A stretch of DNA of 58,569 nucleotides from Trueperaceae bacterium (GTDB lineage: Bacteria > Deinococcota > Deinococci > Deinococcales > Trueperaceae): contig JAABTL010000016.1 of assembly GCA_011389865.1 (NCBI GenBank), positions 1 to 58,569 on the forward strand, given 5' to 3'. Shown piece by piece: positions 35,040 through 55,003 of this stretch (its first letter is position 1; the number at the start of each line of letters is the position of its first letter). The notes below the pieces were generated by a model. It searched no databases, was not told where the DNA came from, and saw nothing but the letters and a program-made list of their open reading frames with translations. Made by a program: the position numbers and the translations under genes.

Positions 35040-35921
35040 TCAGTGGCGTCCCCGGAAGCGCGGGTCGAGCACGTCGCGCAGGCCGTCGCCCAGGGTGTTG
35101 AAGCCGAGCACCGAGACCATGATCGCGAGGCCCGGGAAGATCCCCATCCAGGGCGCCTGCTGCAGGAAACCGCGCCCCTCGGAGAGCATGCGTCCCCAGC
35201 TGGGGTCGGGCGGCTGGGTGCCGAGCCCGAAGAACGACAGCGCGGCCTCTGCGAGGATCGCGAAGGCGAGGCTCAGCGAGGTCTGCACGATGATCGGGCC
35301 GAGCGCGTTGGGCAGCACGTGGCGCAGCATGATGCGCAACTGGCTCTGACCCAGGGCACGGGCCGCGGTGACGAACTCGCGGTCGCGCACCGAGATGACG
35401 GCGCCGCGGGTGACCCGCGCGAAGATCGGCGCGTAGACGATCGCGATGGCGATCATCGCGTTCTCGACGCCGCGCCCCAGGATCGCCATGACCGTGATCG
35501 CCAGCAGGACCGCGGGGAAGGCGAACAGGACGTCCATCACGCGCATGATCACTTCGTCGATCCAGCCGCCGCGGTAGCCGGCCGTCAGGCCGAGGGCGAC
35601 GCCGGCGAGGCCGGAGATGCCGACCGCGATGAAGGCGACCTGGAAGCTGACCGCGGCACCGTACAGGACGCGCGAGAAGACGTCGCGGCCGAAGTCGTCG
35701 GTGCCGAACGGGTGCGCCCACGAGGGCGGGGCGAAGCGGGCGGTGAAGTCCATCGCCATGGGGTCGTAGGGGGCCAACGAGGCGCCGAAGAGCGCGACCA
35801 GCGCCAGGGCGAGGATGAGCCCGCCGCCGAAGAGCACCGAGCCGTGGCGCAGCGCCTTGCGCAGCAGGTCGAGCCCGGGTCGGCTGCGGGGCACCTCGGC
35901 ATGGGACGCCGTCGCGGCCAT
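35040..35921 (-). CDS. Dipeptide/oligopeptide ABC transporter permease (DppC/OppC type)
   Basis: 293 residues. N-terminal cytoplasmic segment and first helix (GGLILALALVALFGASLAPYDP), then the family marker HPFGTDDFGRDVFSRVLYG, four to five helices and the EAA loop EFVTAARALGQSQLRIMLRHVLPN, which docks the ATPase. LSFFGLGTQPPDPSWGRML is the conserved DppC ending region. It forms the channel with the DppB-type subunit encoded before it (1-nt overlap). The dppD/dppF ATPases are not in the window: the gene downstream is unrelated. Confidence 0.94.
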   Translation of the reverse strand: MAATASHAEVPRSRPGLDLLRKALRHGSVLFGGGLILALALVALFGASLAPYDPMAMDFTARFAPPSWAHPFGTDDFGRDVFSRVLYGAAVSFQVAFIAVGISGLAGVALGLTAGYRGGWIDEVIMRVMDVLFAFPAVLLAITVMAILGRGVENAMIAIAIVYAPIFARVTRGAVISVRDREFVTAARALGQSQLRIMLRHVLPNALGPIIVQTSLSLAFAILAEAALSFFGLGTQPPDPSWGRMLSEGRGFLQQAPWMGIFPGLAIMVSVLGFNTLGDGLRDVLDPRFRGRH

Positions 35922-36871
35922 CAGGTGTACGACACCCTCGGGTCGAGGAACGTGTAGGAGAGGTCGGTCAGCAGGTTGATGACGGTGAACGCCACCGCGG
36001 AGAGCAGCACGGCCGCCTGCAGCGCCGGGTAGTCGCGCTGCAGCGTCGCGGTCAACGCCAGCTGCCCGAGGCCCGGCCAGGCGAAGATGATCTCCACCAC
36101 CACGACCGCCGACAGCAGCGTCGCCATCTGCAGGCCCACGATGGTGACGATCGAGATCGAGGCGTTGCGCAGGACGTGCTTGCGCATCACCTTGCGGCGC
36201 GGCAGCCCCTTGGCGTGGGCGGTGCGGACGTAGTCCTGGTTCAGCACCTCGAGCAGCGCCGAGCGGACGAAGCGGGTCATGATCGCGCCGCTGATGATCC
36301 CGGCGGTCAGCGCCGGCAGCGTGATGTGCTGCAGGAAGGGCGCCAGGCCGTCGGAGAGCGGCCGGTACCCCGAGGAGGGGAGCCAGCCGAGCGTCTCGCT
36401 GAAGAGCAGGATGAGCAGGATGCCCATCCAGAAGTCGGGGACCGACACGCCGAGCTGGCTGAACAGCGATACGCCCAGGTCGCGCGGGCTGCCGGGTTTG
36501 AGGGCCGCCAGGATGCCGGCCGGCAGGGCGATCGCGAGGCCCACCAGCAGCGCGGCGAGGGCGAGCGTCAGCGTGGCGGGCACGCGCCGCGTGACCTCAC
36601 CGGCGATCGGCTGGCGACTGATCAGGCTGGTCCCGAAGTCGCCGCGGGTGAGGATGCCGCCCACCCAGGAGACGTACTGCACCGGCAGGGGGCGGTCGAG
36701 CCCCATCTGCCGCTCGAGCGTCGCGACCGCCGCGGGCGTGGCCTGCACGCCGAGCGTCACGCGGGCGGGGCTGCCCGGCAGCAGCGGGATGATGGCGAAG
36801 GTGACGAGCGAGACGCCGAACAGCACCAGGAGGACGGAGCCGAGGCGACGGAGGAGATAGCTGAGGCTCAA
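35921..36871 (-). CDS. Dipeptide/oligopeptide ABC transporter permease (DppB/OppB type)
   Basis: 316 residues. LSYLLRRLGSVLLVLFGVSLVTF is the standard first helix; LGLDRPLPVQYVSWVGGILTRGDFG (as MGLDRPLPVQY...) is the family periplasmic loop, and DYVRTAHAKGLPRRKVMRKHVLRN is the EAA loop. The ending DLSYTFLDPRVSYT matches DppB proteins. The start is TTG, which has GGAGGCC at 8 nt upstream; no ATG is close. It follows the substrate-binding protein gene after a 192-nt gap with a strong hairpin, a usual way to make less permease than binding protein. Confidence 0.93.
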   Translation of the reverse strand: MSLSYLLRRLGSVLLVLFGVSLVTFAIIPLLPGSPARVTLGVQATPAAVATLERQMGLDRPLPVQYVSWVGGILTRGDFGTSLISRQPIAGEVTRRVPATLTLALAALLVGLAIALPAGILAALKPGSPRDLGVSLFSQLGVSVPDFWMGILLILLFSETLGWLPSSGYRPLSDGLAPFLQHITLPALTAGIISGAIMTRFVRSALLEVLNQDYVRTAHAKGLPRRKVMRKHVLRNASISIVTIVGLQMATLLSAVVVVEIIFAWPGLGQLALTATLQRDYPALQAAVLLSAVAFTVINLLTDLSYTFLDPRVSYT

Positions 36872-37023
36872 GCGGGGCCTCCGGCGGATCGCGCGGGGTC
36901 GCCGCGCGCGGGATCGCAGGCCGGCGCGGCCGGCGCGCGGGCTAGGTCGTGCTTCTCAAGATAGCGCTTGGGGACGCGTGGCGTCGGGGAGTCCGGGGGT
37001 GACGTCGGGTGGGACGGGGGCGG

Positions 37024-37059
37024 AAGAGAGGGGGGCCGCTAGGCGCCCCCCCTCCTCTT
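37024..37059 (-). terminator. Hairpin between binding-protein and permease genes
   Basis: Arms 37024-37038 (AAGAGAGGGGGGCCG) and 37044-37059 (CGCCCCCCCTCCTCTT) pair with one or two mismatches around a short loop. It starts 4 nt past the binding-protein stop, read on the minus strand. It could cause partial termination or stabilise the upstream mRNA 3' end. Confidence 0.6.
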
Positions 37060-37063
37060 GGCT

Positions 37064-38566
37064 TCAGCGGTCGAGCCAGGTGCGCACGAAGCGCACGGCC
37101 TGGTCGGCGCGGGTCTCGAAGCCCTGCACGTCGGGCCGGTACGCGTGGATCACCAGCGGGTTGTACAGGTAGATGTAGGGCGCCTCGTCGACGATCGCGC
37201 GGTTCACCTGCTCGTAGAGGTCGCGGCGGGCGTCGGGGTCCGGCAGGACGCGCGCCTCGTCGAGCAGTTCGTCGACGGTGGGGTTGCTGTAGCCCGTGAA
37301 GTTGAACACCTCGCCGGTGCGGTGCTGCGCGTAGAAGAACTCGTCCGGGTCGACCATGCCGTTCCAGGAGCAGACGTAGGTGTCGTAGTTGCCGTCACCC
37401 TGCTCCTGCAGCCACTCGGCCCACTCCAGCGCGCGGATGCTGGCGTCGATGCCCACCGCGGCGAGGTCGGATTGGATCACCTGAGCGGCGCGGACGGTGT
37501 TCGCCATGACCGAGTTGGGCATGATCTCCATCTCGAAGCCATCGGGGTAGCCGGCTTCGGCCAGGAGCTGCCGCGCGCGCTCCGGGTCGTAGTCGTAGGG
37601 CGCGTACGAGAAGTCCCAGGAGGAGGTCGACGGGATCGGGTCCTGGGTGACCATGGCGCTGCCGAACTCGGCGGCCGCGGCGGCGTTGTCGCGGTTGATG
37701 GCGTAGGAGATCGCCTGGCGGACGCGCACGTCGGCGAGCGGTCCGTCCATCATGTTGACGCCGATGTAGTAGTACGCGCCGGCGGCCGCGGCGTCGATGA
37801 CGACGTCGTCGCGGGCATCGAGCTCCTCGACCGACTGCGGGGGAACGGAGAACACCCAGTCGATGTCGCCCGTGATGAGCGCGGTGCGGCGGACGGTCTC
37901 GTCGCCGATGATGCGGATGTCGACGGCGTCGAGGTAGGGGAGGCCCTCCTCCCAGTAGTTCGGGTTGCGTTCGAGCAGCACCCGGGTGCCGGGCTGGTAG
38001 TCGGCGATCATGAAGGGGCCGGTGCCGATCGGCCGGGTGTTGATGCTGCCGTCGGCGACGCCGGCCGGGTCGAAGATGCCCAGGGCCTTGTCGAGGGCCA
38101 GCTTGCCCAACAGCGACGGGTTGGGGGCGGCCAGCTCGAACACCACCGTCGCCGCGTCGGGCGCCGTGACCGACTCGACGCCCGCGAGCCGCCAGGCGTT
38201 GCCGGAGCCGGTCTCGGGGTCGAGGATGCGCTCGAACACCGCGACCACGTGCTCGGCCGACAGCTCCTTGCCGTTGCTGAAGCGGACGCCCTCGCGCAGG
38301 TGGAAGGTGACGCTCAGGCCGTCGTCGGCGACGACCCAGTCGTGCGCCAGCGAGGGGACGACGTTCTGCTCGGCATCGAGCGTGACCAGCGTGTCGAGGA
38401 CGTTCTCGAGGACCTGGTAGCTGGACTGCGCGCTGACGATGTGCGGGTCGAGGCCGACGGGCTCCTGCGCCCAGGCGGCCGTCAGCGTGCCGCCGCGGGT
38501 CTGGGCGGCCGCCAGGCCCGCCAGGGCCAGCAGCAGGATCGGGACGAGGGCGAGGGTTCGCTTCAT
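37064..38566 (-). CDS. Peptide ABC transporter substrate-binding protein (SBP_bac_5)
   Basis: 500 residues, typical for DppA/OppA. Signal peptide MKRTLALVPILLLALAGLAAAQ without a lipobox Cys. The mature protein begins GGTLTAAWAQEPVGLDPHIV, then VTFHLREGVRFSNGKELSAEHV, PIGTGPFMIADYQPGTRVLLERNPNYW (shortened here) and VRQAISYAINRDN, all standard family stretches. It captures peptides, or possibly other ligands of the family such as nickel or heme, in the periplasm for the DppBC pair. AAGGAGGACCCC precedes the ATG as a strong ribosome binding site, and the start overlaps the stop of the Lrp-type regulator gene (ATGA). Cluster partners suggest amino-acid or peptide use. Confidence 0.94.
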   Translation of the reverse strand: MKRTLALVPILLLALAGLAAAQTRGGTLTAAWAQEPVGLDPHIVSAQSSYQVLENVLDTLVTLDAEQNVVPSLAHDWVVADDGLSVTFHLREGVRFSNGKELSAEHVVAVFERILDPETGSGNAWRLAGVESVTAPDAATVVFELAAPNPSLLGKLALDKALGIFDPAGVADGSINTRPIGTGPFMIADYQPGTRVLLERNPNYWEEGLPYLDAVDIRIIGDETVRRTALITGDIDWVFSVPPQSVEELDARDDVVIDAAAAGAYYYIGVNMMDGPLADVRVRQAISYAINRDNAAAAAEFGSAMVTQDPIPSTSSWDFSYAPYDYDPERARQLLAEAGYPDGFEMEIMPNSVMANTVRAAQVIQSDLAAVGIDASIRALEWAEWLQEQGDGNYDTYVCSWNGMVDPDEFFYAQHRTGEVFNFTGYSNPTVDELLDEARVLPDPDARRDLYEQVNRAIVDEAPYIYLYNPLVIHAYRPDVQGFETRADQAVRFVRTWLDR

Positions 38567-39123
38567 GGGGTCCTCCTTCGGTCGTGCGTCGGGTTCCGGG
38601 GGCGGCGTCGGGGGGCGGCGGGCGGATCGGAGGACGGGGCAGGGGCGGGCGAGCCGTCGTCGCCGAGTTCCCAGTCCCACACGCTCTTGGTGATGCGCAC
38701 GACCTGCATGGTCTCGTAGCCGACGATGGCGTCGCTGCCGAGCTCCTCCTGCAGGAAGGCGTGGAGTTCCGCGTTGGAGCCGTGGAGCGACTCGACGACC
38801 AGGTTGTGCGCGCCCACGCAGGTGGCGAGGTAGCGCACCGATTCGTAGCGGGCGAGCGACTCGACGACGTCGTCGAGGGACGCGGGCCGCACCTTGGCGT
38901 AGGTGGTGGCCACGACCGGCACCCCCAGGGCGAGTGGGTCGCTGATCGCGATGATGCGCATCCAGCCCTCGTCGAGGAGGCGGTGGGCCCGCTTGCGCAC
39001 CATCGACTCCGACACGCCGAGCTCGCGGGCGATCTCGCGGAAAGGGCGGCGGCCATCGCGGCGGAGCGCGATGACGATGCTTTGGTCGACCGGGTCGAGG
39101 CGGTCGTACAGGCTGTCGGCCAC
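38563..39123 (-). CDS. Lrp/AsnC-family transcriptional regulator
   Basis: 186 residues. The winged helix-turn-helix lies at residues 8-60 (LDPVDQSIVIALRRDGRRPF, IARELGVSESMVRKRAHRLL). The ligand-binding RAM-like domain follows, with VRYLATCVGAHNLVVESLHG, and the conserved Gly-His position is occupied by GAHN. A ~35-residue Pro/Arg-rich tail is added beyond the usual ~150 residues. Lrp-type proteins sense amino acids; here the gene is first in an operon with the peptide-binding protein (4-nt overlap), so it likely controls that importer. The start is GTG with GGGAGGCGCC directly upstream. The 201 nt upstream to 39324 show no other gene. Confidence 0.93.
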   Translation of the reverse strand: MADSLYDRLDPVDQSIVIALRRDGRRPFREIARELGVSESMVRKRAHRLLDEGWMRIIAISDPLALGVPVVATTYAKVRPASLDDVVESLARYESVRYLATCVGAHNLVVESLHGSNAELHAFLQEELGSDAIVGYETMQVVRITKSVWDWELGDDGSPAPAPSSDPPAAPRRRPRNPTHDRRRTP

Positions 39124-44739: not shown

Positions 44740-46032
44740 ATGTTCACCCGTCGGTCCGCCCACCTGCGTGGGCTGCTCGTCTCGTTGCTCGTCGCGGTCG
44801 CTGCCTTCGCCGCCGCTTCTCCCCAGGTGCGGGTGGCCCCCGACCTCGACGACGTCTTCGTCGCGCTGGCGGACGCCTACCCCGGCGCACGGCCTGAGGC
44901 CGTCGATGCCGGCGCGCAGTTGCAGCTGCAGCGCGGGGAGGTCGCGCTCCGCGACCTCGACAGCGTGGTCGTCGTGCCCGGCGTCACCCTGTCGCTGCTC
45001 GCCGACGACGCCGACGCGCGCGCCTTCCAGCGGTTCGCCACCTCGCCCGCCGGCCAGCGGGCGTTGATCGCGGCCGGGCTCCTCCCCGACCGCGTCACCC
45101 TCGTCGACCAGGGCGGGCGCGAGCTGACGATCGCTCAGCCCGTCGAGCGGCTGGCCAGCCCCTACTCGTTGGCCACCTACCTGGCGTACGGCGTGGGCGC
45201 GGGCGACCGGGTGGTCGCCGCCGGCTTCCTCGGCGCGCGCGATCCCGACGGCATCGCCGCGATGACCCGCATCGATCCGCGCTTCCCCGACCTCGTCGCG
45301 TTCGCCTCGCAGGAGACGACCAACGTCGAGGCGATCGCCGCGCTCGCACCCGACGTCGTCTTCGCGTCGGCCCGCTCCGAGTGGATCGAGTCGGTCGAGA
45401 CGATCGGCGTCCCCGTCGTCGTCTTCGACGGAGAGTCGCAGGAGCAGTTGATCGGCGCCATGCGCCTGGTGGGCGCGCTGTTCGGCCCGGACGCCGCGGC
45501 CCGCGCCGAGGCGTGGGTGACCTACTACGAGGAGGTCGTGGCCCAGGTGGTGGCCTACACGTCGGTCCTCGACGAGCTGCCGAAGGTGCTCTTCACCGGC
45601 ACCGAGCGCACGCGTGTCGCCTCCGGCGAGATGTACCAGTCGTTCCTGGTCATGGCCGCCGGCGGCACCAGCGTCACGGCCGGCCTCGGCGGCTTCTGGA
45701 ACGACGTCGGCGTGGAGCAGGTGATCGGCTGGTCGCCCGAGGTCGTGCTGGTGCCGCCGTACGGCCGCGCCTCGGTCGCGGCGGTGCTCGAGGACGCGAC
45801 CTGGCGGACCGTCCCCGCGGTCCGCGACGGGGCCGTCTACCGCGTGCCGAAGCTCGTGGCGCCGTGGGACACGCCCGTGCCCGACTCGGTGCTGGCGCTG
45901 GTATGGCTCACGGAGGTGCTGCACCCCGGGCTCGTCGGGCTCTCCTGCGTCGACGAGACGACGTTCTTCTACCGGCGCTTCTACGCGTACGACATCAGCC
46001 TCGAGGAGGCCACCGGCCTGTGCAGCCGCTGA
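44740..46032 (+). CDS. Periplasmic binding protein of a FecCD-type importer with an extra N-terminal ModA-like segment
   Basis: 430 residues, about 100 more than BtuF/FhuD-type proteins. Signal peptide MFTRRSAHLRGLLVSLLVAVAAFA. Residues ~28-118 (VRVAPDLDDVFVALADAYPG ... RFATSPAGQRALIAAGLLP) resemble the start and end of ModA-like binding proteins, as if shortened. From ~125 the type III binding fold starts: ERLASPYSLATYLAYGVGAGDRVVA, then NVEAIAALAPDVVFASA and a helix-rich link, VIGWSPEVVLVPPYG. Ligand candidates are iron chelates, cobalamin, nickel or oxoanions; the family also includes molybdate/tungstate binders (MolA). Two Cys close to the C terminus (SCVDE, LCSR) could pair. GGGAGG lies 7 nt before the ATG. 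It heads an operon with the permease and ATPase. Confidence 0.82.
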   Translation: MFTRRSAHLRGLLVSLLVAVAAFAAASPQVRVAPDLDDVFVALADAYPGARPEAVDAGAQLQLQRGEVALRDLDSVVVVPGVTLSLLADDADARAFQRFATSPAGQRALIAAGLLPDRVTLVDQGGRELTIAQPVERLASPYSLATYLAYGVGAGDRVVAAGFLGARDPDGIAAMTRIDPRFPDLVAFASQETTNVEAIAALAPDVVFASARSEWIESVETIGVPVVVFDGESQEQLIGAMRLVGALFGPDAAARAEAWVTYYEEVVAQVVAYTSVLDELPKVLFTGTERTRVASGEMYQSFLVMAAGGTSVTAGLGGFWNDVGVEQVIGWSPEVVLVPPYGRASVAAVLEDATWRTVPAVRDGAVYRVPKLVAPWDTPVPDSVLALVWLTEVLHPGLVGLSCVDETTFFYRRFYAYDISLEEATGLCSR

Positions 46033-46053
46033 GCCTGCGGGCGGGCCCCGGGG

Positions 46054-47121
46054 GTGCGCTTGGCCCCTGAACCCGCCCAGGTGGCCCCCGGCCTCGGCCG
46101 GACGCCGGCGGGACCGCGTTGGGCGCGGCTGGCGCTCGCCGCGGGCCTGGCGTCGCCGTTCCTCGTCGCGCTGCTGGCGCTCGGCCTCGGTTACTACCCG
46201 ATCCCCGTCGTCGACGTCGCCCGTTCGCTGCTCTCCGCCGCGGTCCCCGCCGCCGCCGACGGCGTGCCCGAGGTCGCGCGGCTGCTGGTGCTCGAGGTCC
46301 GGCTCCCGCGGGTACTCGCCGCCCTGTTGATCGGTGCCGCGCTGGCGGTGACCGGCGTCGTCTTCCAGGGCATCTTCACCAACCCGCTGGTCGATTCCAA
46401 CCTGCTGGGCGTGACCTCCGGGGCGGGCTTCGGCGCCGCCCTGGCGCTGCTGCTCGGCGGCGGCACGGTCTGGGTCCAGGCCGCCGCCTTCGGCTTCGGG
46501 CTGCTGGCGGTCACCCTCGCCTTCCTCGGTTCGCGCCTCTACCGCACGGCGCCGATGATCGTGCTCACGCTGATGGGCATCCTGGTCGGGTCGCTGTTCG
46601 GCTCGCTGACCTCGCTGCTGAAGTACGTCGCCGACCCGCTCGACGCCCTGCCCGCGATCACCTTCTGGCTGCTCGGCGGCCTGACGGGCGTCGGCTGGGG
46701 CGACGTGCCGGCGCTGCTGACGCTCACCGGCGTCGGCGCGGCCTTCTTCTTCCTCGTGCGCTGGCGCCTCAACGTGCTGTCGCTCGGTGACGCCGAGGCG
46801 ACCGCCCTCGGCATGCGGCCGCTGCACATGAAGTTCGGCCTGATCGTCGTCGCCACGCTGATGACCGCCATCGCCGTCTCGGTGGGGGGCGTGATCGGCT
46901 GGGTCGGGCTGGTGGTGCCCCACGCCGCGCGCATCGTCGTCGGCCCGGACCACCGCCGGCTGGTGCCGATGTCGCTGGCGCTCGGCGCCACCTTCCTGCT
47001 GCTGATCGACACCGTCTCCCGGACGCTGCTGCCGTCCGAGGTCCCGCTCGGGGTGCTGACCGGCCTGATCGGCGTGCCCATCCTGGTCGTGCTGCTGCGC
47101 CGCAACCGGACGGGGTGGTGA
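46054..47121 (+). CDS. FecCD-family ABC transporter permease
   Basis: 355 residues with about ten helices. LRLPRVLAALLIGAALAVTGVVFQG (as VRLPRVLAALLIG...) is the family hallmark after helix 2, followed by NPLVDSNLLGVTSGAGFGAAL, and the cytoplasmic coupling segment LGDAEATALGMRPLHMKFG. VGGVIGWVGLVVPHAARIVVGPDHR near residues 270-295 is the other conserved stretch. The usual ligand is an iron chelate, heme or cobalamin, or molybdate in MolB. The start is GTG, 21 nt after the binding-protein stop; the gene is followed by the ATPase after 1 nt. Confidence 0.93.
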   Translation: MRLAPEPAQVAPGLGRTPAGPRWARLALAAGLASPFLVALLALGLGYYPIPVVDVARSLLSAAVPAAADGVPEVARLLVLEVRLPRVLAALLIGAALAVTGVVFQGIFTNPLVDSNLLGVTSGAGFGAALALLLGGGTVWVQAAAFGFGLLAVTLAFLGSRLYRTAPMIVLTLMGILVGSLFGSLTSLLKYVADPLDALPAITFWLLGGLTGVGWGDVPALLTLTGVGAAFFFLVRWRLNVLSLGDAEATALGMRPLHMKFGLIVVATLMTAIAVSVGGVIGWVGLVVPHAARIVVGPDHRRLVPMSLALGATFLLLIDTVSRTLLPSEVPLGVLTGLIGVPILVVLLRRNRTGW

Positions 47122-47122
47122 C

Positions 47123-48499
47123 GTGGCGCGGCTGACCGCCTCGGGCATCGAGTTCGCCTACGTCGCCGGCAAACCGGTGGTGCAGGACGTGTCGGTGGCG
47201 GTCGACGCCGGCGAGGTCGTGTTCCTGCTCGGCCACAACGGGAGCGGCAAGAGCAGCCTCCTCGGCTGCCTCGCGGGCGTGCACCGGCCGTCGTCCGGCC
47301 AGGTGCTGCTCGACGGCGAGGACGTGCACGCCATGAGCGCCCCCGCCCGCGCGCGGCGCCTCGGCATGATCCCGCAGCTGCACGTCGCGGCCTTCGCCTA
47401 CGACGTGCTCGAGGTGGTGCTGATGGGCCGCGCGCCGCACCTGGGCACCTTCGAGGCACCGGGTCCCGAGGACGAGGCGATCGCGCTCGACGCGCTCGCC
47501 CTGGTCGGCCTGACGGACTTCCGGAACCGCCGCTACACCGAGCTCAGCGGCGGCGAGCGCCAGCTGGTGATGGTCGCCCGCGGCCTCGCGCAGCGCTGCG
47601 ACGTCCTGCTGATGGACGAGCCCGACGCCCACCTCGACCCGCGCAACCAGTTCCGTGTGCTCGAGGTCGTCTCCGATCTCGCCCGCCAGCGGGGCCTGGC
47701 GGTGGTCATCGCCTCCCACGCGCCCAACAGCGCCCTGATGTTCGCCGACCGGGTCCTGCTGCTGCGCCACGGCCGCACGCTGGCCATGGGCGGCGTGAAC
47801 CAGACGCTCGACGAGGAGCGCCTGACCGCCGCCTACGGCATGCCGACCGAGGTCGTCACCAAGGTCGTCGCCGGCCGCCGCGTGCCGCGCGCCATCCTCC
47901 CCCGGCGCATCGACCGCGTCGCGGACGAGGTCGACACGATCGCGGTGCACCGCGCCGACGTCGAGCGGCCCGGCACCCTGCTGGACCGCGTCTTCGCCGC
48001 CGGCGCGCGGCGACCACAGCGGCTGATCGTCACCGGCGCGCGCGGCACCGGCAAGAGCCTGTGGTGCGCCGCGGTCGCCGAGACGGCCCGCGCGCGCGGC
48101 CTGCGGGTCGCGGGCGTGTCGTCGCCGGCCGTGATCGAGGGCGGCCGCAAGACCGCCATCGACCTCGTCGACCTGGGCACGGGGCAGCGGCGGCGACTGG
48201 CCGAGGTGCGTCGCGCCGACGAGCCGGGGACCGCCACCCAGCGCTGGCGCTTCGCGGAGAACGCGCTCGCATGGGGCAACGAGGTCCTGCGGGCCGCCGC
48301 GGAGGCACCCGGCGTCGACCTGCTGCTGGTCGACGAGCTCGGCCCGCTCGAGTTCGTTCGTGGCGAGGGGTTCACCGAGGGCCTGGCAGCGGTCGACGCG
48401 CGGCACTACGCCGTCGCGCTCGCCGTGGTGCGCCCGGCCCTGGTCGACGAGGCGCTGCGGCGGTGGCCGGACGCGGTGGTGGTGGACGTCGAGGACTAG
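47123..48499 (+). CDS. ABC importer ATPase fused to a THEP1-like P-loop NTPase
   Basis: 458 residues. Residues 1-~250 are a FecE/BtuD-type ATPase: Walker A LLGHNGSGKSSLLG, signature YTELSGGERQLVMVARGLAQ, Walker B VLLMDEPDAHLDP and switch His in VIASHAPN. After a ~45-residue link a second P-loop domain begins: LIVTGARGTGKS (about 301-312), then VSSPAVIEGGRKTAIDLVDL and Walker B LLLVDELGPLEF (about 400-411). This second part resembles nucleoside-triphosphatases of the THEP1/NTPase_1 or DUF2478 type. Such a fusion is not something I know from standard importers. It may gate the transporter or process its cargo. The start GTG is 1 nt after the permease stop. Two perfect hairpins follow the stop. 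Confidence 0.88.
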   Translation: MARLTASGIEFAYVAGKPVVQDVSVAVDAGEVVFLLGHNGSGKSSLLGCLAGVHRPSSGQVLLDGEDVHAMSAPARARRLGMIPQLHVAAFAYDVLEVVLMGRAPHLGTFEAPGPEDEAIALDALALVGLTDFRNRRYTELSGGERQLVMVARGLAQRCDVLLMDEPDAHLDPRNQFRVLEVVSDLARQRGLAVVIASHAPNSALMFADRVLLLRHGRTLAMGGVNQTLDEERLTAAYGMPTEVVTKVVAGRRVPRAILPRRIDRVADEVDTIAVHRADVERPGTLLDRVFAAGARRPQRLIVTGARGTGKSLWCAAVAETARARGLRVAGVSSPAVIEGGRKTAIDLVDLGTGQRRRLAEVRRADEPGTATQRWRFAENALAWGNEVLRAAAEAPGVDLLLVDELGPLEFVRGEGFTEGLAAVDARHYAVALAVVRPALVDEALRRWPDAVVVDVED

Positions 48500-48500
48500 T

Positions 48501-48559
48501 GTCTTTGGGCGCCCTGCGGGCGCCCAAAGACCATGGCTTCCGGCCTCCGGCCGGAAGCC
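48501..48559. terminator. Two adjacent perfect hairpins after the ABC operon
   Basis: Bases 48501-48531 form a 14-bp stem with a 3-nt loop (GTCTTTGGGCGCCC-TGC-...). Bases 48535-48559 form an 11-bp stem with a 3-nt loop (GGCTTCCGGCC-TCC-...). There is no T tract. They lie 1 nt after the stop codon and probably end the importer transcript before the regulator gene. Confidence 0.75.
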
Positions 48560-48654: not shown

Positions 48655-48741
48655 ATGACCAACGCATCGTCTATTCCCCAATTCGGCGATGGCGACGGTC
48701 GGGCCCCGCTCGGCGAGGGGCCGAGAGGGGTCGGCGGATGA
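48655..48741 (+). CDS. Possible 28-residue leader peptide overlapping the regulator start
   Basis: A frame from ATG at 48655 reads MTNASSIPQFGDGDGRAPLG and eight further residues and stops with TGA at 48739-48741. That TGA overlaps the ATG of the Rrf2-type gene (ATGA), so ribosomes finishing the leader could restart on the regulator. It begins 9 nt after the -10 hexamer. No homologue is known to me and it lacks a Shine-Dalgarno sequence; it may simply be part of a leader RNA. Confidence 0.35.
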   Translation: MTNASSIPQFGDGDGRAPLGEGPRGVGG

Positions 48742-49160
48742 CGCAATCGACCGGGTACGCGATCACGGCGTTGGGCCACGTGGCGGCCATGGGCGACCAG
48801 CCGCTGCTGATCAAGGACATCGCGGAGGCCACCGGCCTGCCGCACCCCTACCTCGCGAAGATCATCCACACGCTGGCGCGGCGCGGCCTGGTGGTCACCC
48901 GACGCGGCGTCGGCGGAGGCGTGACGCTCGCCAAGCCGGCGGCGCTGATCACCCTCTTCGACATCGCCGAGGCGCTCGACGACCCCCTGTTGGACGAGCG
49001 CTGCATGCTCGGCGCCGCCGAGTGCAGCGACGAGCGCGCGTGCCCCGCCCACGAGTTCTGGACGGAGCACCGGCGGGCACAGATCGACTTCCTGCGCGAC
49101 CGTTCGCTCGCCGACGTCGCCGCCTTCGAGCGGCGGCAGCTCGAGCGGAGCGCGGCGTGA
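48738..49160 (+). CDS. Rrf2-family regulator with a CX6CX5C motif
   Basis: 140 residues. Winged helix at the N terminus (GYAITALGHVAAMGDQPLLI, IAEATGLPHPYLAKIIHTLA, GLVVTRRGVGGGVTLAK) is that of Rrf2/IscR/NsrR regulators. Three cysteines at residues 89, 96 and 102 match the Fe-S cluster position of IscR and NsrR (there CX5CX5C-like), so it likely senses NO, O2 or Fe-S status through a [2Fe-2S] or [4Fe-4S] cluster. It stands between a metal-type importer and a [NiFe] hydrogenase operon, both on the same strand, and is a natural candidate to control either or both. It has its own promoter at 48616-48645. Confidence 0.9.
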   Translation: MTQSTGYAITALGHVAAMGDQPLLIKDIAEATGLPHPYLAKIIHTLARRGLVVTRRGVGGGVTLAKPAALITLFDIAEALDDPLLDERCMLGAAECSDERACPAHEFWTEHRRAQIDFLRDRSLADVAAFERRQLERSAA

Positions 49161-49548: not shown

Positions 49549-50808
49549 ATGAGCCGAGCCCGCACGCAAGCCGATCCCGAGGCGATCGATCGGACGCTGG
49601 ACGAAGCGTCGATCGAGCATTACGAGCGCCTCGCGGCGGAGGCCGACCAGCACCTGGACAAGCTGGCGGCGCAGGCCCCGCTGAAGGACACGACGCTCGA
49701 GTACCAACTGCGCAAGCGCGGCGTCACGCGGCGCGAGTTCCTCAAGATGACGGCGGTCATGACCGCCACGATGGCGCTGCCGTCGATGTTCGACCTGCGC
49801 GTCGCACGCGCGGCCGAGCTCGCGACCCGCCTGCCCGTCATCTGGCAGGAGCTGCAGTCGTGCACGGGCAACAGCATGGCTCTCATCCGCAACAGCAATC
49901 CAGGCGTCGACGAGTTGATCCTCGACCTCATCAGCCTCGAATACGCCGAGGTGCTGATGGCGCCCTCCGGCCAGGCCGCCGAGGACGTTCTCGAGGCCTC
50001 CATCGAGCGGTACCGCGGCGAGTACATCGCCGTCTTCGAGGGTTCGGTCCCCATGGCCGACGACGGCAACTTCCTGACGATCGGCCCCGCCGGCCACACC
50101 GGCATCGAGGTCGTCAAGCACGTCGCCGAGAACTCCGCCGCCATCATCGCGGCCGGCACCTGCGCGGCCTACGGCGGCATCCCCGCCGCCCGCCCGAACC
50201 CGACGGCCGCCCTCGGCATCGCCGACTTCCTCAACACCCAGCGGATCAACAAGCCGGTCGTCAACCTGCCGGCCTGTCCCGTGTCGAGCACCAACGTCGT
50301 CGGCACCATCCTCGAGTACGCCCTGTTCGGGCGGCTCCCCTCGCTCGACGCCTTCGGCCGCCCGCTGTGGGCCTACGGCGACCGCATCCACGACAAGTGC
50401 GAGCGGCGCGGCCACTTCGACGCCGGCCAGTTCGTTGAGGGCTGGAGCGACACCGAAGGCCTGAAGGCGGGCCTGTGCCTCTACAAGGTCGGCTGCAAGG
50501 GCCCGATGGCCTACAACAACTGCGGCGTCGTGCGCTACAACGACGGCACCTCCTGGCCGATCATGGCCGGCCACGGCTGCATCGGCTGCAGCGAGCCGGG
50601 CTTCTGGGACACCCTCACCCCGTTCGAAGTGCCCCTCGCCGGCCGTCGCTACCCCGTCTTCGGGATCGACGCCGACGCCGACACCATCGGTGCGGTCGCC
50701 CTGGGCGCCGCGGCCGTCGGCATCGTCGCCCACGCGGGCGCGACCATGGTCAAGAGCGCGACCGAGCAGCGCGCCGCCAAGAAGCCCGAAGCCAAGAAGG
50801 AGCAGTGA
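49549..50808 (+). CDS. [NiFe] hydrogenase small subunit, Tat-exported, membrane-anchored
   Basis: 419 residues. A ~55-residue charged helical N-terminal extension precedes the Tat signal (GVTRREFLKMTAVMTATMAL; twin Arg 61-62). The Fe-S protein then begins LPVIWQELQSCTGNSMALIR. Compared with the standard ECTGCSES, Cys105 is kept but the second proximal-cluster Cys is Asn108. Remaining proximal ligands are Cys205 (AGTCAAYGG) and Cys243 (LPACPVSS). Medial and distal ligands are present in DKCERRGHFDAGQF, LCLYKVGCKGPMAYNNCG and GHGCIGCSEPGFWD. One membrane helix near the C terminus (TIGAVALGAAAVGIVAHAGA) anchors it facing the periplasm. Group 1 (uptake) type: it passes electrons from H2 to the cytochrome b encoded behind the large subunit. 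GAGGAGGA precedes the ATG. Confidence 0.95.
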   Translation: MSRARTQADPEAIDRTLDEASIEHYERLAAEADQHLDKLAAQAPLKDTTLEYQLRKRGVTRREFLKMTAVMTATMALPSMFDLRVARAAELATRLPVIWQELQSCTGNSMALIRNSNPGVDELILDLISLEYAEVLMAPSGQAAEDVLEASIERYRGEYIAVFEGSVPMADDGNFLTIGPAGHTGIEVVKHVAENSAAIIAAGTCAAYGGIPAARPNPTAALGIADFLNTQRINKPVVNLPACPVSSTNVVGTILEYALFGRLPSLDAFGRPLWAYGDRIHDKCERRGHFDAGQFVEGWSDTEGLKAGLCLYKVGCKGPMAYNNCGVVRYNDGTSWPIMAGHGCIGCSEPGFWDTLTPFEVPLAGRRYPVFGIDADADTIGAVALGAAAVGIVAHAGATMVKSATEQRAAKKPEAKKEQ

Positions 50809-50811
50809 GTC

Positions 50812-52500
50812 GTGGCCAAACATGTGATTGACCCCATCACGCGCATCGAGGGGCACCTGCGCATCGAGATCGAGGTCGACGACGCCGGCAACGTGTTCGA
50901 GGCGAACTCGAGCAGCACCGCGTTCCGCGGCTTCGAGACGATCATGAAGGGCCGCGACCCGCGCGACGTCGGCATGTTCGCCCAGCGCATCTGCGGCGTC
51001 TGCACCTTCCACCACTACGAGCGCGGCGTCGAGGCGACCGAGAGCGTCTTCGGCGCGACCATCCCGCCGAACGCGCGCTCGCTGCGCAGCCTGATCTGGG
51101 CCGCGCAGACGATCAACGACCACAGCACGCACTTCTACCAGCTGCACGCGATGGACTGGTTCGACGTCGTCAGCGCCCTCGGCGCCGACCCCGAGGCCGC
51201 CACCGAAGAGGCGCTGCGCTACCACTCGAGCCCGTTCAACGCGTCGGTCAGCCACTACCGCGCGGTCGCGGCCAAGCTGCTGGCCTTCGTCGAGAGCGGC
51301 CAACTCGGGCCCTTCGCCGGCGGCTACTGGGGCCACCCCAAGTACCTGCTCACCCCCGAGCAGAACCTGATCCTGGCGTCGCACTACCTCGACAACCTGT
51401 CGATCCAGCGCCTCAGTGCCCAGGCCTCCGCCGTCTTCGGCGGCAAGAACCCGCACCCGCAGAGCCTGATCGTCGGCGGCATCACCTCCGCTCGTGACGG
51501 CCTCGACGCCCACCGCATCGCGCAGTACCAGTTCCTCATGCAGAAGTCGATGGACTTCGTCGAGCGCGCCTACCTGCCCGACATGGAGATGATCGGCAAC
51601 GCGTACCGCGCCGAGGCCCTGGCCGGTCACGGCGCCGGCGTGCCGAACTACATGAGCTTCGGTGGACTGTCGCTCAGCGAGGGGGCGTGGGACGACCGCA
51701 CGTACCTGCTGCCACGCGGCATCGTCAGGGACCGCGACCTCTCCAGCGTCGAACCCGTCGACGCCATGAAGATCGGCGAGGAGGTCGCGCACTCCTGGTA
51801 CACCTACAGCGGCGGCGAGACCTCGCTGCACCCGCTGCGCGGCCAGACCAACCCGGCCTACGAGGGCTTCGAGTCCGACGGCACGCTCAAGACCACCGGC
51901 GGCTACAGCTGGATCAAGTCGCCGCGCTACGACGGCATGCCCGTCGAGGTCGGCCCGCTGGCGCGCATGATCGTCGGTTACGCGTCCGGCCAGCCCGAGG
52001 TGCGCGCGGTCATGGACGACTACGCCGCCAAGCTCGGCGTCCCCTTCGAGTTCTTCTACTCGACCGTCGGTCGCACGGTGGCCCGCGCGCTCGAGACCAA
52101 GGTGATCGGTGACTACCTCCCGACGCTTCTCGGTGGGCTCATCAACAACGTCAAGGGCGGCGACGACCGCTTCTTCAACCGCTACGACGCCAAGGACGGC
52201 GAGGGCTACGGCATGGGCGAGGCGCCCCGCGGCAGCCTCAGCCACTGGCTCGTCGTCAAGGACGGCGCGGTCGAGAACTACCAGGCGGTCGTGCCGTCGA
52301 CCTGGAACGCGGGTCCGCGGGACAGCCAGGGCCAGCGCGGCGCGTACGAGGCGGCGTTGGTCGGCCAGCCGATGGCGGATCCCGAGAGCCCGCTCGAGGT
52401 CGTCCGGACGATCCACTCCTTCGATCCCTGCCTCGCCTGCGCGGTGCACGTGCTCAACCGCAAGGGTGAGGAGATCGCGTACTACGAAGTGGAGGTGTGA
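50812..52500 (+). CDS. [NiFe] hydrogenase large subunit
   Basis: 562 residues. The N terminus IDPITRIEGHLRIEIEVDD has the RIEGH segment with the proton-transfer Glu. The Ni ligands are in RICGVCTFHH (Cys61, Cys64) and DPCLACAVH (Cys540, Cys543). After His546 a 16-residue tail (VLNRKGEEIAYYEVEV) is expected to be removed by the maturation protease encoded two genes downstream. The chain oxidises H2 at a NiFe(CN)2CO centre. It is exported with the small subunit by Tat after folding. The start is GTG with AAGGAG 9 nt upstream, 3 nt after the small-subunit stop. Confidence 0.97.
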   Translation: MAKHVIDPITRIEGHLRIEIEVDDAGNVFEANSSSTAFRGFETIMKGRDPRDVGMFAQRICGVCTFHHYERGVEATESVFGATIPPNARSLRSLIWAAQTINDHSTHFYQLHAMDWFDVVSALGADPEAATEEALRYHSSPFNASVSHYRAVAAKLLAFVESGQLGPFAGGYWGHPKYLLTPEQNLILASHYLDNLSIQRLSAQASAVFGGKNPHPQSLIVGGITSARDGLDAHRIAQYQFLMQKSMDFVERAYLPDMEMIGNAYRAEALAGHGAGVPNYMSFGGLSLSEGAWDDRTYLLPRGIVRDRDLSSVEPVDAMKIGEEVAHSWYTYSGGETSLHPLRGQTNPAYEGFESDGTLKTTGGYSWIKSPRYDGMPVEVGPLARMIVGYASGQPEVRAVMDDYAAKLGVPFEFFYSTVGRTVARALETKVIGDYLPTLLGGLINNVKGGDDRFFNRYDAKDGEGYGMGEAPRGSLSHWLVVKDGAVENYQAVVPSTWNAGPRDSQGQRGAYEAALVGQPMADPESPLEVVRTIHSFDPCLACAVHVLNRKGEEIAYYEVEV

Positions 52501-52502
52501 AC

Positions 52503-53294
52503 GTGGCGACCCGCGCGGTTGGAGCCAAGCGCAGCGCGGTCGTGGTCGAGCGGCCGGGCCGGCCGGCGCTCGTGGTGTACGTCTTCGGACGCTACATCCG
52601 CGCCGCGCACTGGATCCGCAACGCCCTGCTGATCTGGCTGGTGCTCAGCGGCATCTACATCGGCAACCCGTTCCTGGCCCGCGTGCTGTACCCGGAGACG
52701 GCCGAGGGCTTCGTCATGGCCCAGATCCGCGGCTGGCACGTCGCCGCCGGCTGGATCCTGCTCGCCTTCACCCTGGCGCGCATCTACCAGTTCCTGTTCG
52801 TCAACAGGGAGGGCAAGCTCGGCATCGGCGCGGAACTGCGGATGGCGCCCATCATGTTCAGCTGGAAGGCCTGGCGCGACCAGCTCGCCTTCTACCTGCT
52901 CATGCGCCGCGATCACCCGCACTTCACCTACAGCAACTACGGCCCGCTGCAGTTCCTCGTGTACACGATGCTGTACGCCTCGCTGCTGGTCATCAGCATC
53001 ACGGGCATCATCCTCGCGTCGCCGTACGTGTCGGGCGGCCTCGCCAGCTTCGGGGCCGACCTGCTGCGGCCGATCGAGGTGTGGATGGGCGGCCTGTCGA
53101 ACGTCCGGGCGGTGCACCGCTTCGTGATGTGGTTCTTCGTCCTGTTCACCGTCGCCCACATCTACATGGCCGTGTGGAACAGCATCCGGACCGGCGGCCT
53201 GATCATCGAGGGCATCGTCTCCGGCTTCAAGGCCGACGACGTCGAGACCACGCACGTCAGCAAGGAAGAGCTCGACAAGGGCAAGGCCCAGTGA
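52503..53294 (+). CDS. Hydrogenase cytochrome b subunit (HyaC-like)
   Basis: 263 residues with four membrane helices (about 35-55, 75-100, 150-175 and 200-225). His residues expected to bind two b hemes are in RAAHWIRNALLIW, IRGWHVAAGW, VRAVHRFVMWFF and VAHIYMAVWN. It takes electrons from the small subunit and passes them to the quinone pool, making the enzyme a respiratory uptake hydrogenase. GGAGG at 52491-52495 is 7 nt before the GTG at 52503; a GTG at 52497 overlapping the large-subunit stop is the alternative. It ends 1 nt inside the protease gene. Confidence 0.93.
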   Translation: MATRAVGAKRSAVVVERPGRPALVVYVFGRYIRAAHWIRNALLIWLVLSGIYIGNPFLARVLYPETAEGFVMAQIRGWHVAAGWILLAFTLARIYQFLFVNREGKLGIGAELRMAPIMFSWKAWRDQLAFYLLMRRDHPHFTYSNYGPLQFLVYTMLYASLLVISITGIILASPYVSGGLASFGADLLRPIEVWMGGLSNVRAVHRFVMWFFVLFTVAHIYMAVWNSIRTGGLIIEGIVSGFKADDVETTHVSKEELDKGKAQ

Positions 53295-53848
53295 TGAACG
53301 CGCGCCCGCTCCTGGTGCTCGGCGTCGGCAACGTCTACTACGGCGACGAAGGCGCGGGTGTGCACCTGGTGCACTACCTCCGCACCAAGTACGCCTTCCC
53401 CCCGAACGTGGCGGTCGTCGACGGCGGCACGCTCGGCTGGCAGCTGCTCAACCTGATCGCCGAGTACGAGCACGTGGTCCTGATCGACGCGGTGGCCGCG
53501 CCCCCGGGCAAGGTCTACCGCTTCGGCAAGGGCGACGTGCCCGACGAGGTCGGCTACGGTAAGCTCTCCTCGCACGAGTGGGAGGTGCCCGACCTGCTGA
53601 CCGCCATGGACCTCTACGGCGACCTGCCCGACGTCACCATCGTGGCGATCGGCGTCGACCCGCTCGAGTTCGGGAAGGGCGAGGTGGGCGTCGCGCTCAG
53701 CCCGCTCATCCGCGAGCGGCTCGAGGCGCTCGCCACCGTCACGCTGCGCGAGCTCGAACGCCTGGGCGTCGAACCCACCGTGGTCCGGCCCGAACTGACG
53801 GCCAGCCAGCCGTTCACCGCAGAGGAGATCGTCCTGGCGCATGCATGA
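53294..53848 (+). CDS. Hydrogenase maturation protease (HyaD/HybD family)
   Basis: 184 residues. LLVLGVGNVYYGDEGAGVHLV carries the first Ni-binding Glu (about residue 17), VVLIDAVAAPPGK the Asp and LSSHEWEVPDLL the His, i.e. the three residues that read nickel in the folded large-subunit precursor. It cuts after the last His of DPCLACAVH. The length exceeds HyaD by little; the final ~20 residues (RPELTASQPFTAEEIVLAHA) are extra. The ATG overlaps the cytochrome b stop by 1 nt and the end overlaps hypA by 8 nt. Confidence 0.94.
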   Translation: MNARPLLVLGVGNVYYGDEGAGVHLVHYLRTKYAFPPNVAVVDGGTLGWQLLNLIAEYEHVVLIDAVAAPPGKVYRFGKGDVPDEVGYGKLSSHEWEVPDLLTAMDLYGDLPDVTIVAIGVDPLEFGKGEVGVALSPLIRERLEALATVTLRELERLGVEPTVVRPELTASQPFTAEEIVLAHA

Positions 53849-54191
53849 GTTCAGCCTGGTCATGAGCATGCTCGACCTGGCAGAGAAGGCGGCGCGCGCC
53901 GACGGTGCGCGCCGCATCTCTGCGATCCACCTCGAGATCGGCGCGCTGGCCGGCGTCGTCCCGGAGGCGCTGGAGTTCGCCTTCGAGGGCGCCCGCGTGG
54001 GAACGATGGCGGAGAATGCTCGCCTGGAGGTGACGTACCTCCCCGCCATCGCGTACTGTGCGACATGCCAGTCCGAGTTCGAACTCGACAACCGCTTCGG
54101 GATCGCCGTGTGCCCGTCCTGTGACACCCCGTCCGCCGACCTGCGCCAGGGCCGCGAGCTCCAGCTCGCCCACCTCGAGGTAGAGGAATGA
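53841..54191 (+). CDS. hypA: Hydrogenase nickel-incorporation protein HypA
   Basis: 116 residues. The N terminus MHEFSLVMSMLDLAEKAA has the Ni-binding Met-His, here followed by Glu as is typical. A zinc site is formed by CATCQSEFEL and CPSCDTP. HypA works with HypB to insert nickel into the large subunit. It overlaps the maturation protease gene by 8 nt and hypB by 4 nt (ATGA), so the three are tightly coupled. Confidence 0.96.
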   Translation: MHEFSLVMSMLDLAEKAARADGARRISAIHLEIGALAGVVPEALEFAFEGARVGTMAENARLEVTYLPAIAYCATCQSEFELDNRFGIAVCPSCDTPSADLRQGRELQLAHLEVEE

Positions 54192-55003
54192 GCGGACGCC
54201 CCGACGCCACCGAGCGCGGTTCGGCGCCAGCCGAACCGCAACCTGTGCCGGCGGCCGGCACGACCGCCAGCACACGCGATGTGAGGGTCAGCCCCCACGG
54301 CACCGCGGCGATCCCCGGGGCCCGCGTGGTGCAGGTGCAGAAGTCGCTGATGGTGCACAACGACGGCGTCGCCGCGGCCAACCGCGAGGCCTTCCGCGGC
54401 AGCCTGGTGCTCAACGTCGTCTCCAGCCCCGGGTCGGGGAAGACCGCGCTGCTCGAACGCACCGTCCGCGACCTGGATGGCGACCTCTCCGTCGCCATCG
54501 TGGTCGGCGACCTCGAGACCGACAACGACGCCGAGCGGCTGCACGCCGCAGGCGCGCCGTCCGTGCAGATCGTCACCGGCACCGTCTGCCACCTGGAGGC
54601 GGAGATGGTCGCCCGCGCGGTCGATCAGCTCGACCTGGGCGGCCTCGACGTGCTCGTCATCGAGAACGTCGGCAACCTGGTGTGTCCTGCCGCGTGGGAT
54701 CTCGGGGAAGACCTGCGCGTCACCATGCTCTCGGTGACCGAGGGTGAGGACAAGCCGCTGAAGTACCCGCGCATCTTCAAGGACGCCGACGCGGTGTTGA
54801 TCAACAAGATCGACATCGCCGAGGTCGTCGGCTTCGACCGCGTTCGCGCGCTCGACGCCGTCCGCAAGGTGGCGCCCGGCGCCCGCGTGTTCGAGCTCTC
54901 GGCGCGCACCGGCGAGGGCGTCGGCGACTGGCTCGACTACCTGCGTGAGCGGCGGCGGCTCAAGGCATCCGCGATCGCGGCGGCCGCGACCGACGCGAGC
55001 TGA
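54188..55003 (+). CDS. hypB: Hydrogenase accessory GTPase HypB
   Basis: 271 residues. G1 is VVSSPGSGKTALLERTV, switch regions include GDLETDNDAERL, and the specificity motif is LINKID. VTGTVCHLEAEMV provides the Cys-His of the metal site between protomers. The N-terminal ~45 residues are Pro/Thr/Ala-rich; the poly-His nickel store of some HypB proteins and the CxxC metal motif at the N terminus are absent. It supplies GTP energy for nickel delivery with HypA. hypF follows after 4 nt. Confidence 0.95.
   Translation: MSGRPDATERGSAPAEPQPVPAAGTTASTRDVRVSPHGTAAIPGARVVQVQKSLMVHNDGVAAANREAFRGSLVLNVVSSPGSGKTALLERTVRDLDGDLSVAIVVGDLETDNDAERLHAAGAPSVQIVTGTVCHLEAEMVARAVDQLDLGGLDVLVIENVGNLVCPAAWDLGEDLRVTMLSVTEGEDKPLKYPRIFKDADAVLINKIDIAEVVGFDRVRALDAVRKVAPGARVFELSARTGEGVGDWLDYLRERRRLKASAIAAAATDAS

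Follow-up and report, generated by a model that had tools for sequence, protein, structure and literature searches.

What does an ATP-binding cassette (ABC) importer transport when both its binding protein and its ATPase have acquired an additional domain, and what would these domains do? The question is raised by a three-gene operon on a 58,569-nucleotide stretch of a Trueperaceae bacterium (contig JAABTL010000016.1 of assembly GCA_011389865.1, hereafter the window), where it lies next to the genes of a [NiFe] hydrogenase. The analyses below make it rather likely that the operon encodes a MolBCA-like importer of molybdate or tungstate, or of a molybdenum chelate, equipped with a dedicated nucleoside triphosphatase (NTPase).

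The three genes occupy positions 44740-48499, as given in a preliminary description of the locus made from the sequence alone, whose coordinates were correct. All are on the + strand, with small gaps between them and sound reading frames. The first (44740-46032) codes for a binding protein of 430 residues composed of a signal peptide, a shortened ModA segment and a PF01497 (Peripla_BP_2) domain, with orthologues at 59-93% identity in five relatives. It is followed by the genes of a 355-residue FecCD permease (PF01032; 46054-47121), orthologues of which are found at every fusion locus with enough sequence, and of the 458-residue fused ATPase (ABC_tran and PF03266; 47123-48499). The scores of PF01032 (262.6 bits), PF01497 (63.2 bits) and ABC_tran (111 bits) and the organization in one operon identify a type II, FecCD-type ABC importer with an ATPase of the FecE/BtuD type.

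The C-terminal domain of the ATPase

The ABC domain covers roughly residues 1-250 of the ATPase (PF00005; 47123-47872), with a Walker A motif, an LSGGERQ signature, a Walker B motif and an H-loop, and ABC_tran matches at residues 21-168. The closest PDB chain to the ATPase is HI1470, also called MolC (E=1.1e-44), which also comes top by fold, although a fold search based on the ATPase model supports the ABC half only. The structure predictions of the binding protein and the ATPase, both built from shallow alignments, were poor (mean predicted local distance difference test scores of 49 and 64.5), and the model of the binding protein was left unused.

Residues 300-455 (48020-48487) form a second domain, of the NTPase_1 (THEP1) type. 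The preliminary description had called it THEP1/DUF2478-like, with its own Walker A motif and a DELGPLE Walker B motif. The THEP1 label and both motifs hold, with a PF03266 score of 58.1 bits for a cut-off of 23.9. DUF2478 (PF10649) also passes its cut-off at the same region, but more weakly (29.3 versus 22.3 bits), and a literature search on DUF2478 found nothing useful. The domain, which is the sole PF03266 match across the genome of the window, harbours the Walker A motif GARGTGKS (residues 305-312), Cys315, DELGPLE (404-410) with the catalytic Glu of Walker B, and VVRP (435-438). GARGTGKS and DELGPLE are kept in relatives, and conservation over 80 loci supports the domain. The homologues in the retrieved loci have in common a Cys residue after Walker A (93%), VDELGPLE, Gly416 and VVRP, while two members of the family from Thermus-like relatives are devoid of that Cys, Gly416 and VVRP. 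Judging from these motifs, the C-terminal domain of the window belongs to a distinct NTPase_1 subfamily. Aquifex THEP1 (aq_1292, PDB 1ye8) is a slow ATPase/GTPase whose function is unknown (PMC1079890). The window domain resembles THEP1/NTPase_1 proteins (COG1618) by its PF03266 match and its Walker A and DELGPLE-type Walker B motifs. It differs from them by the Cys after Walker A, Gly416, VVRP and the ties of its subfamily to ABC importers, whereas THEP1 had been considered an RNA/DNA-related enzyme. In three Thermus-like relatives, which represent another family of the same order, the other subfamily is represented by a THEP1-type NTPase gene flanked by TrpG-like and TrpD-like genes (L025:4154-4693, L026:13633-14079 and L027:12924-13445).

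Distribution of the NTPase

Eight loci have an uninterrupted fused frame, namely those of genomes G085, G086, G087, G075 (two copies), G080 and G081, and locus L033. Fragments of the fusion are found in G077 and G079. L033 comes from a metagenome-assembled genome labelled Spirochaetaceae; the other fusions are from Trueperaceae. As these eight uninterrupted frames come from several assemblies made independently, the fusion is real and conserved, and not a frameshift or an assembly artefact. A close orthologue of the importer (L128, on G102:C96), with a permease 76% identical to that of the window and the ModA segment present, has an ATPase without the NTPase domain.

We scanned species genomes for the NTPase domain and kept the best 80 loci. 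Most of these are from Anaerolineae and other Chloroflexi; others are from Thiobacillus, Tepidimonas, Acidobacteriota, Acidimicrobiia, Bipolaricaulota, Armatimonadetes and further groups. The search for the fusion and its neighbourhoods suggested in the preliminary description showed that both fusions recur in relatives and that, outside Trueperaceae, the NTPase mostly has a gene of its own beside this type of importer. In 44 of the 80 loci, a separate NTPase gene directly follows the ABC gene in a cassette of binding protein, FecCD permease and ABC genes, with overlaps of typically 1, 4 or 10 bases, which argues for a joint function. The NTPase is fused in eight loci, belongs to an importer cassette with another gene order in two, and precedes the operon of a double-ABC, energy-coupling factor (ECF) importer in four. 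Since the NTPase is mostly separate and its gene overlaps that of the ABC protein, the fusion is a step taken locally, starting from two translationally coupled genes. A search of a plasmid collection yielded one weak archaeal match, at 28.5% identity.

Some NTPase loci have other surroundings. In two loci of Chloroflexi (L091:3587-5784 and L107:771-2951), the NTPase gene follows those of a PiT-type phosphate permease and a DUF47-like protein. The row of genes at L037:3-9702 (Thiobacillus) comprises three PF01497-type binding-protein genes, two O-methyltransferase-like genes, ExbB/ExbD-like genes, the NTPase gene and a further methyltransferase gene. An operon at L056:7980-13061 codes for the same NTPase, a double ECF ATPase, a methyltransferase, an S component, a small lipoprotein with a sulfite-oxidase-type PF00174 domain, EcfT and FmdE, and a similar gene set is found at L050:5121-8959. 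One S component of the ECF-linked loci matches PF09819 barely above the cut-off, so that thiamine was considered.

The ModA remnant of the binding protein

The PF01497 domain of the binding protein spans residues 149-371 (45184-45852); its PDB relatives include 4hn9, 4ovk and 3psa (MolA), and it is closer to MolA (2e-17) than to BtuF (1e-6). It is preceded by an extension of ~90 residues (28-116; 44821-45087), which the preliminary description had likened to a shortened ModA. Taken alone, the window extension matches the ModA family PF13531 weakly (E=4.7e-4, 20.4 bits, under the 25-bit cut-off). The match recurs in all six members scanned (E between 1.7e-4 and 0.011) and in each case concerns the C-terminal end of the profile. 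A profile built from nine extensions retrieved FbpA-kind periplasmic binding proteins from the PDB, with a best E of 0.0015, and showed no preference for ModA. The resemblance is borne out by L085, an Anaerolineae locus of the same operon type, whose 638-residue binding protein consists of a full ModA followed by PF01497 (80 bits). Its ModA part scores 191.9 bits with PF13531 over residues 63-294 and is 48% identical to the ModA protein of genome G085, and its junction with PF01497 is at the same position as that of the window. Because L085 has a full ModA joined to PF01497 at the same place, the extension is, on these alignments, a shortened ModA. The L085 fusion gene (312-2228) lies upstream of FecCD, ABC and NTPase genes.

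The extension is not a complete, two-lobed ModA. Of ModA, the first strand-helix and the last helix are all that aligns; the middle is gone and the first loop has an altered serine motif, and hence this stump should no longer bind molybdate. Alignments showed that it is also kept in Trueperaceae, including G102, and in L033, L064 and L074.

Genetic environments and molybdenum enzymes

Molybdate or tungstate, imported as by MolBCA, was among the candidates named in the preliminary description. The kinship of the ATPase with MolC and the ModA fusion of L085 point that way, and so do the genetic environments of the importer. In G085 (L021), the gene order is mobA-like, importer, moaB (TIGR02667 above cut-off), molybdo-oxidoreductase, iron-sulfur protein and NrfD. 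In G081 (L023) and G075 (L024), the importer genes are preceded by a mobA-like gene and followed by ArsR, TorD-like, molybdo-oxidoreductase and iron-sulfur protein genes, and a mobA-like gene adjoins that of the binding protein at a contig end in G078 (L129). Similar associations occur where the NTPase is a separate gene. Locus L042 of Tepidimonas has the order modB, modC, modA, binding protein, modD, permease, ABC and NTPase, and locus L038 of Thiobacillus has mobA, ModE-like, TonB-dependent receptor, nifQ, binding protein, permease, ABC and NTPase. A molybdenum or tungsten substrate is thus fairly well supported, the nature of the ligand being deduced from sequences, and it is on firmer ground than the task of the NTPase.

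The genomes that carry the fusion mostly lack modA. A modA gene above cut-off is present in 16 of 39 Trueperaceae genomes, and in only one (G085) of the nine fusion genomes. The genome of the window, which is 97% complete, harbours at least three molybdo-oxidoreductase genes and a MoeA-like gene, and has no modA match, in a search that covered ModA and not the Tup and Wtp importers. Unexpectedly, we found no match to MoaC, MoaA or MoaE in this genome or in any other fusion genome of Trueperaceae apart from G085, the search in the genome of the window covering these three proteins of the pathway. In Trueperaceae, MoaA and MoaE are present in 19 to 20 genomes. The moa contig of G085 may be foreign, since this genome is 79% complete with 6% contamination. 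Among the family genomes with members of the dimethyl sulfoxide reductase family, the importer is found in seven of the eight that are devoid of moa genes versus one of the 20 that have them (Fisher p=5e-5, over two genera only and uncorrected for descent). For this count NuoG-like matches were removed by hand and G078 was scored as a carrier based on its binding protein and permease. We dropped the more general proposal that every genome with a ModA-stump importer lacks the moa pathway, as the L033 genome contains the fusion together with MoaA- and MoaC-like genes.

PhsA/PsrA-like and Fdh-like molybdo-oxidoreductases are encoded on contigs C16 (L132), C53 (L131) and C43 (L127) of G000, and also in G086, G087, G075, G080 and G081. 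Most of these genomes carry a MoeA-like gene, and none has a match to MoaA, MoaC or MoaE.

Molybdoproteins in organisms with neither a complete cofactor pathway nor a known molybdenum importer, called orphan molybdoproteins, are a recognized puzzle (PMC6147048), and most fusion-bearing Trueperaceae resemble such organisms. That work proposed unknown biosynthetic parts or molybdenum-independent forms, whereas we name a candidate importer. Orphan molybdoproteins leave two needs, for the metal and for the pterin, either of which could be covered by the importer.

Alternative substrates

Several observations weigh against a molybdate or tungstate importer with an NTPase partner. The PDB binding proteins nearest to that of the window are not MolA but 4hn9 and 4ovk, which bear iron-type names or are plainly called periplasmic binding proteins. 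There is no Rfam match to a molybdenum cofactor (Moco) riboswitch in the window, L021, L038, L042 or L074. The genome of G102 retains the importer, without the NTPase, yet has no MoeA match and only NuoG-like PF00384 matches; MoaA, MoaC and MoaE gave no match in it either. No importer is adjacent to the NTPase in 19 of the 80 loci, some of which are at contig ends. Finally, hyp genes are located a few kb from the NTPase in two further lineages (L074:10799-11838, L096:9000-13767 and L108:9000-9938). In addition, a model search found no match of the importer proteins to a MolBCA equivalog model.

The hyp genes just mentioned, for HypA and HypB near L074 and HypABCDF near L096, are with those of L108 the sole other support, beyond the genus of the window (g1), for a nickel importer serving the neighbouring hydrogenase. 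In g1, the hydrogenase and hyp genes adjoin the importer, which had made nickel plausible in the preliminary description, and no NicO was found in the genome of the window. Nevertheless, this adjacency is limited to the one genus, and in genus g4 the importer sits among molybdenum genes. Moreover, the two systems occur apart: the hydrogenase occurs with no fusion in G088, G101, G104, G106 and G107, and the fusion with no full hydrogenase match in G077, G079 and G080, all three of which are incomplete genomes. We thus detected neither conserved linkage to nor co-occurrence with the [NiFe] hydrogenase. Even in the window, a perfect inverted repeat (TCTTTGGGCGCCC-TGC-GGGCGCCCAAAGA; 48502-48530, + strand) just 3' of the ATPase stop codon and the gene of an Rrf2-family regulator (PF02082, with TIGR00738 above cut-off; 48738-49160, + strand) separate the importer from the hydrogenase. 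The repeat is a possible terminator closing the importer operon, and the hydrogenase genes are probably a separate transcription unit. An Opp/Dpp/Nik-like importer is also encoded elsewhere in the window. Based on this distribution and the likely operon border, we rejected nickel import, which we consider improbable. Another chelate, such as an iron-siderophore, heme or a corrinoid, has equally little to recommend it. General FecCD models (BtuC, FhuB, FecC and heme ATPases) match the importer, all below their cut-offs, and 4hn9 and 4ovk, the relatives of the binding protein in the PDB, bear a name that refers to iron or none. However, the BtuF, BtuC and BtuD equivalog models also remain below cut-off, and the genome of the window has a separate BtuF-like system (L130). 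The neighbouring genes that we read include none for heme, siderophores or B12, and molybdenum genes recur near the importer instead.

A less remote but still unlikely alternative is salvage, in which the importer would take in preformed molybdopterin or a near precursor, and the tethered NTPase would phosphorylate or otherwise activate the pterin ahead of the MoeA and MobA steps. It would account for the lack of MoaC, MoaA and MoaE matches in the fusion genomes of the family other than G085, when that of the window still encodes molybdo-oxidoreductases and a MoeA-like protein, for the skewed occurrence of the importer in genomes devoid of moa genes, and for the mobA-like genes that adjoin it. 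ECF importers transport vitamins and divalent metals, and the same NTPase gene precedes ECF importer genes beside molybdenum genes in L056 and L104; the genomes of L100 and L104 have no MoaA match. Salvage fits poorly, however, with the L033 genome and with G085, both of which combine the fusion and moa genes, and MoaA is above cut-off in 27 of the 40 NTPase genomes outside Trueperaceae. The importer of G102 occurs in a genome with no molybdoenzyme candidates other than NuoG-like PF00384 matches, and L085 bears a ModA head. The MoeA-like genes suggest that the metal is inserted in the cell, so that molybdate would still be required. We found no bacterial molybdopterin importer in the literature searched.

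Proposed mechanism and relation to known systems

For a molybdate or tungstate importer, the following mechanism can be envisioned. The PF01497 domain would bind molybdate, tungstate or a chelate and dock on the FecCD permease homodimer, with the ABC domains powering import. The ModA stump, having lost its pocket, may be a structural relic or a docking aid, and it would descend from a two-headed ModA-MolA protein like that of L085. The C-terminal NTPase would be permanently tethered at the cytoplasmic exit and spend ATP or GTP there. Its most likely role would be to take over or process the arriving molybdenum or tungsten species for cofactor assembly, gating of import being less likely. We propose this task for the NTPase only tentatively.

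MolBCA of Haemophilus influenzae (HI1470-HI1472) is a low-affinity molybdate importer, and MolA also binds tungstate (PMC4031551). Like the window system, it is composed of a FecCD-fold permease, a PF01497 binding protein and an ABC ATPase, MolC being the closest solved relative of the window ATPase. In contrast, its binding protein has no ModA part and its ATPase no NTPase, and it works beside ModABC, whereas carriers of the window type are mostly devoid of modA. The window importer is linked to ModABC by its N-terminal extension, which descends from ModA. However, ModABC has a type I permease (BPD_transp_1, as in modB of L042), and the window stump lacks most of ModA. We found no description of the fused or coupled NTPase partner, of the reduction of ModA to a stump or of the link to molybdoenzyme users without moa genes in the open-licence papers searched.

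These findings provide an NTPase_1/THEP1 subfamily of unknown function with a context, that of molybdenum-linked ABC import, in which it is a fused or translationally coupled partner in several phyla. They also show a step-wise domain history, from full ModA joined to PF01497 in L085 to shortened ModA joined to PF01497 in the window. With a group of Trueperaceae that have molybdoenzymes yet are devoid of both ModA and the moa pathway, the question of orphan molybdoproteins becomes testable through one operon. If pterin salvage were true, it would explain life with molybdoenzymes but no moaA, moaC and moaE.

Neighbouring genes

Downstream of the Rrf2 gene and outside the importer operon, positions 49549-55003 (+ strand) code for the small and large subunits of the [NiFe] hydrogenase, a cytochrome b, a maturation protease, HypA and HypB. 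On the - strand, positions 35040-38680 code for the binding protein and two permeases of the Opp/Dpp/Nik-type importer, whose cargo might be a peptide or nickel. Its best models are NikB/NikC-like (Opp2B and Opp2C), all under cut-off. In the hydrogenase small subunit, ~58 residues (49549-49725) precede the twin-arginine signal, which the corresponding model places at residues 59-78, and this extension is kept in G086 and G087.

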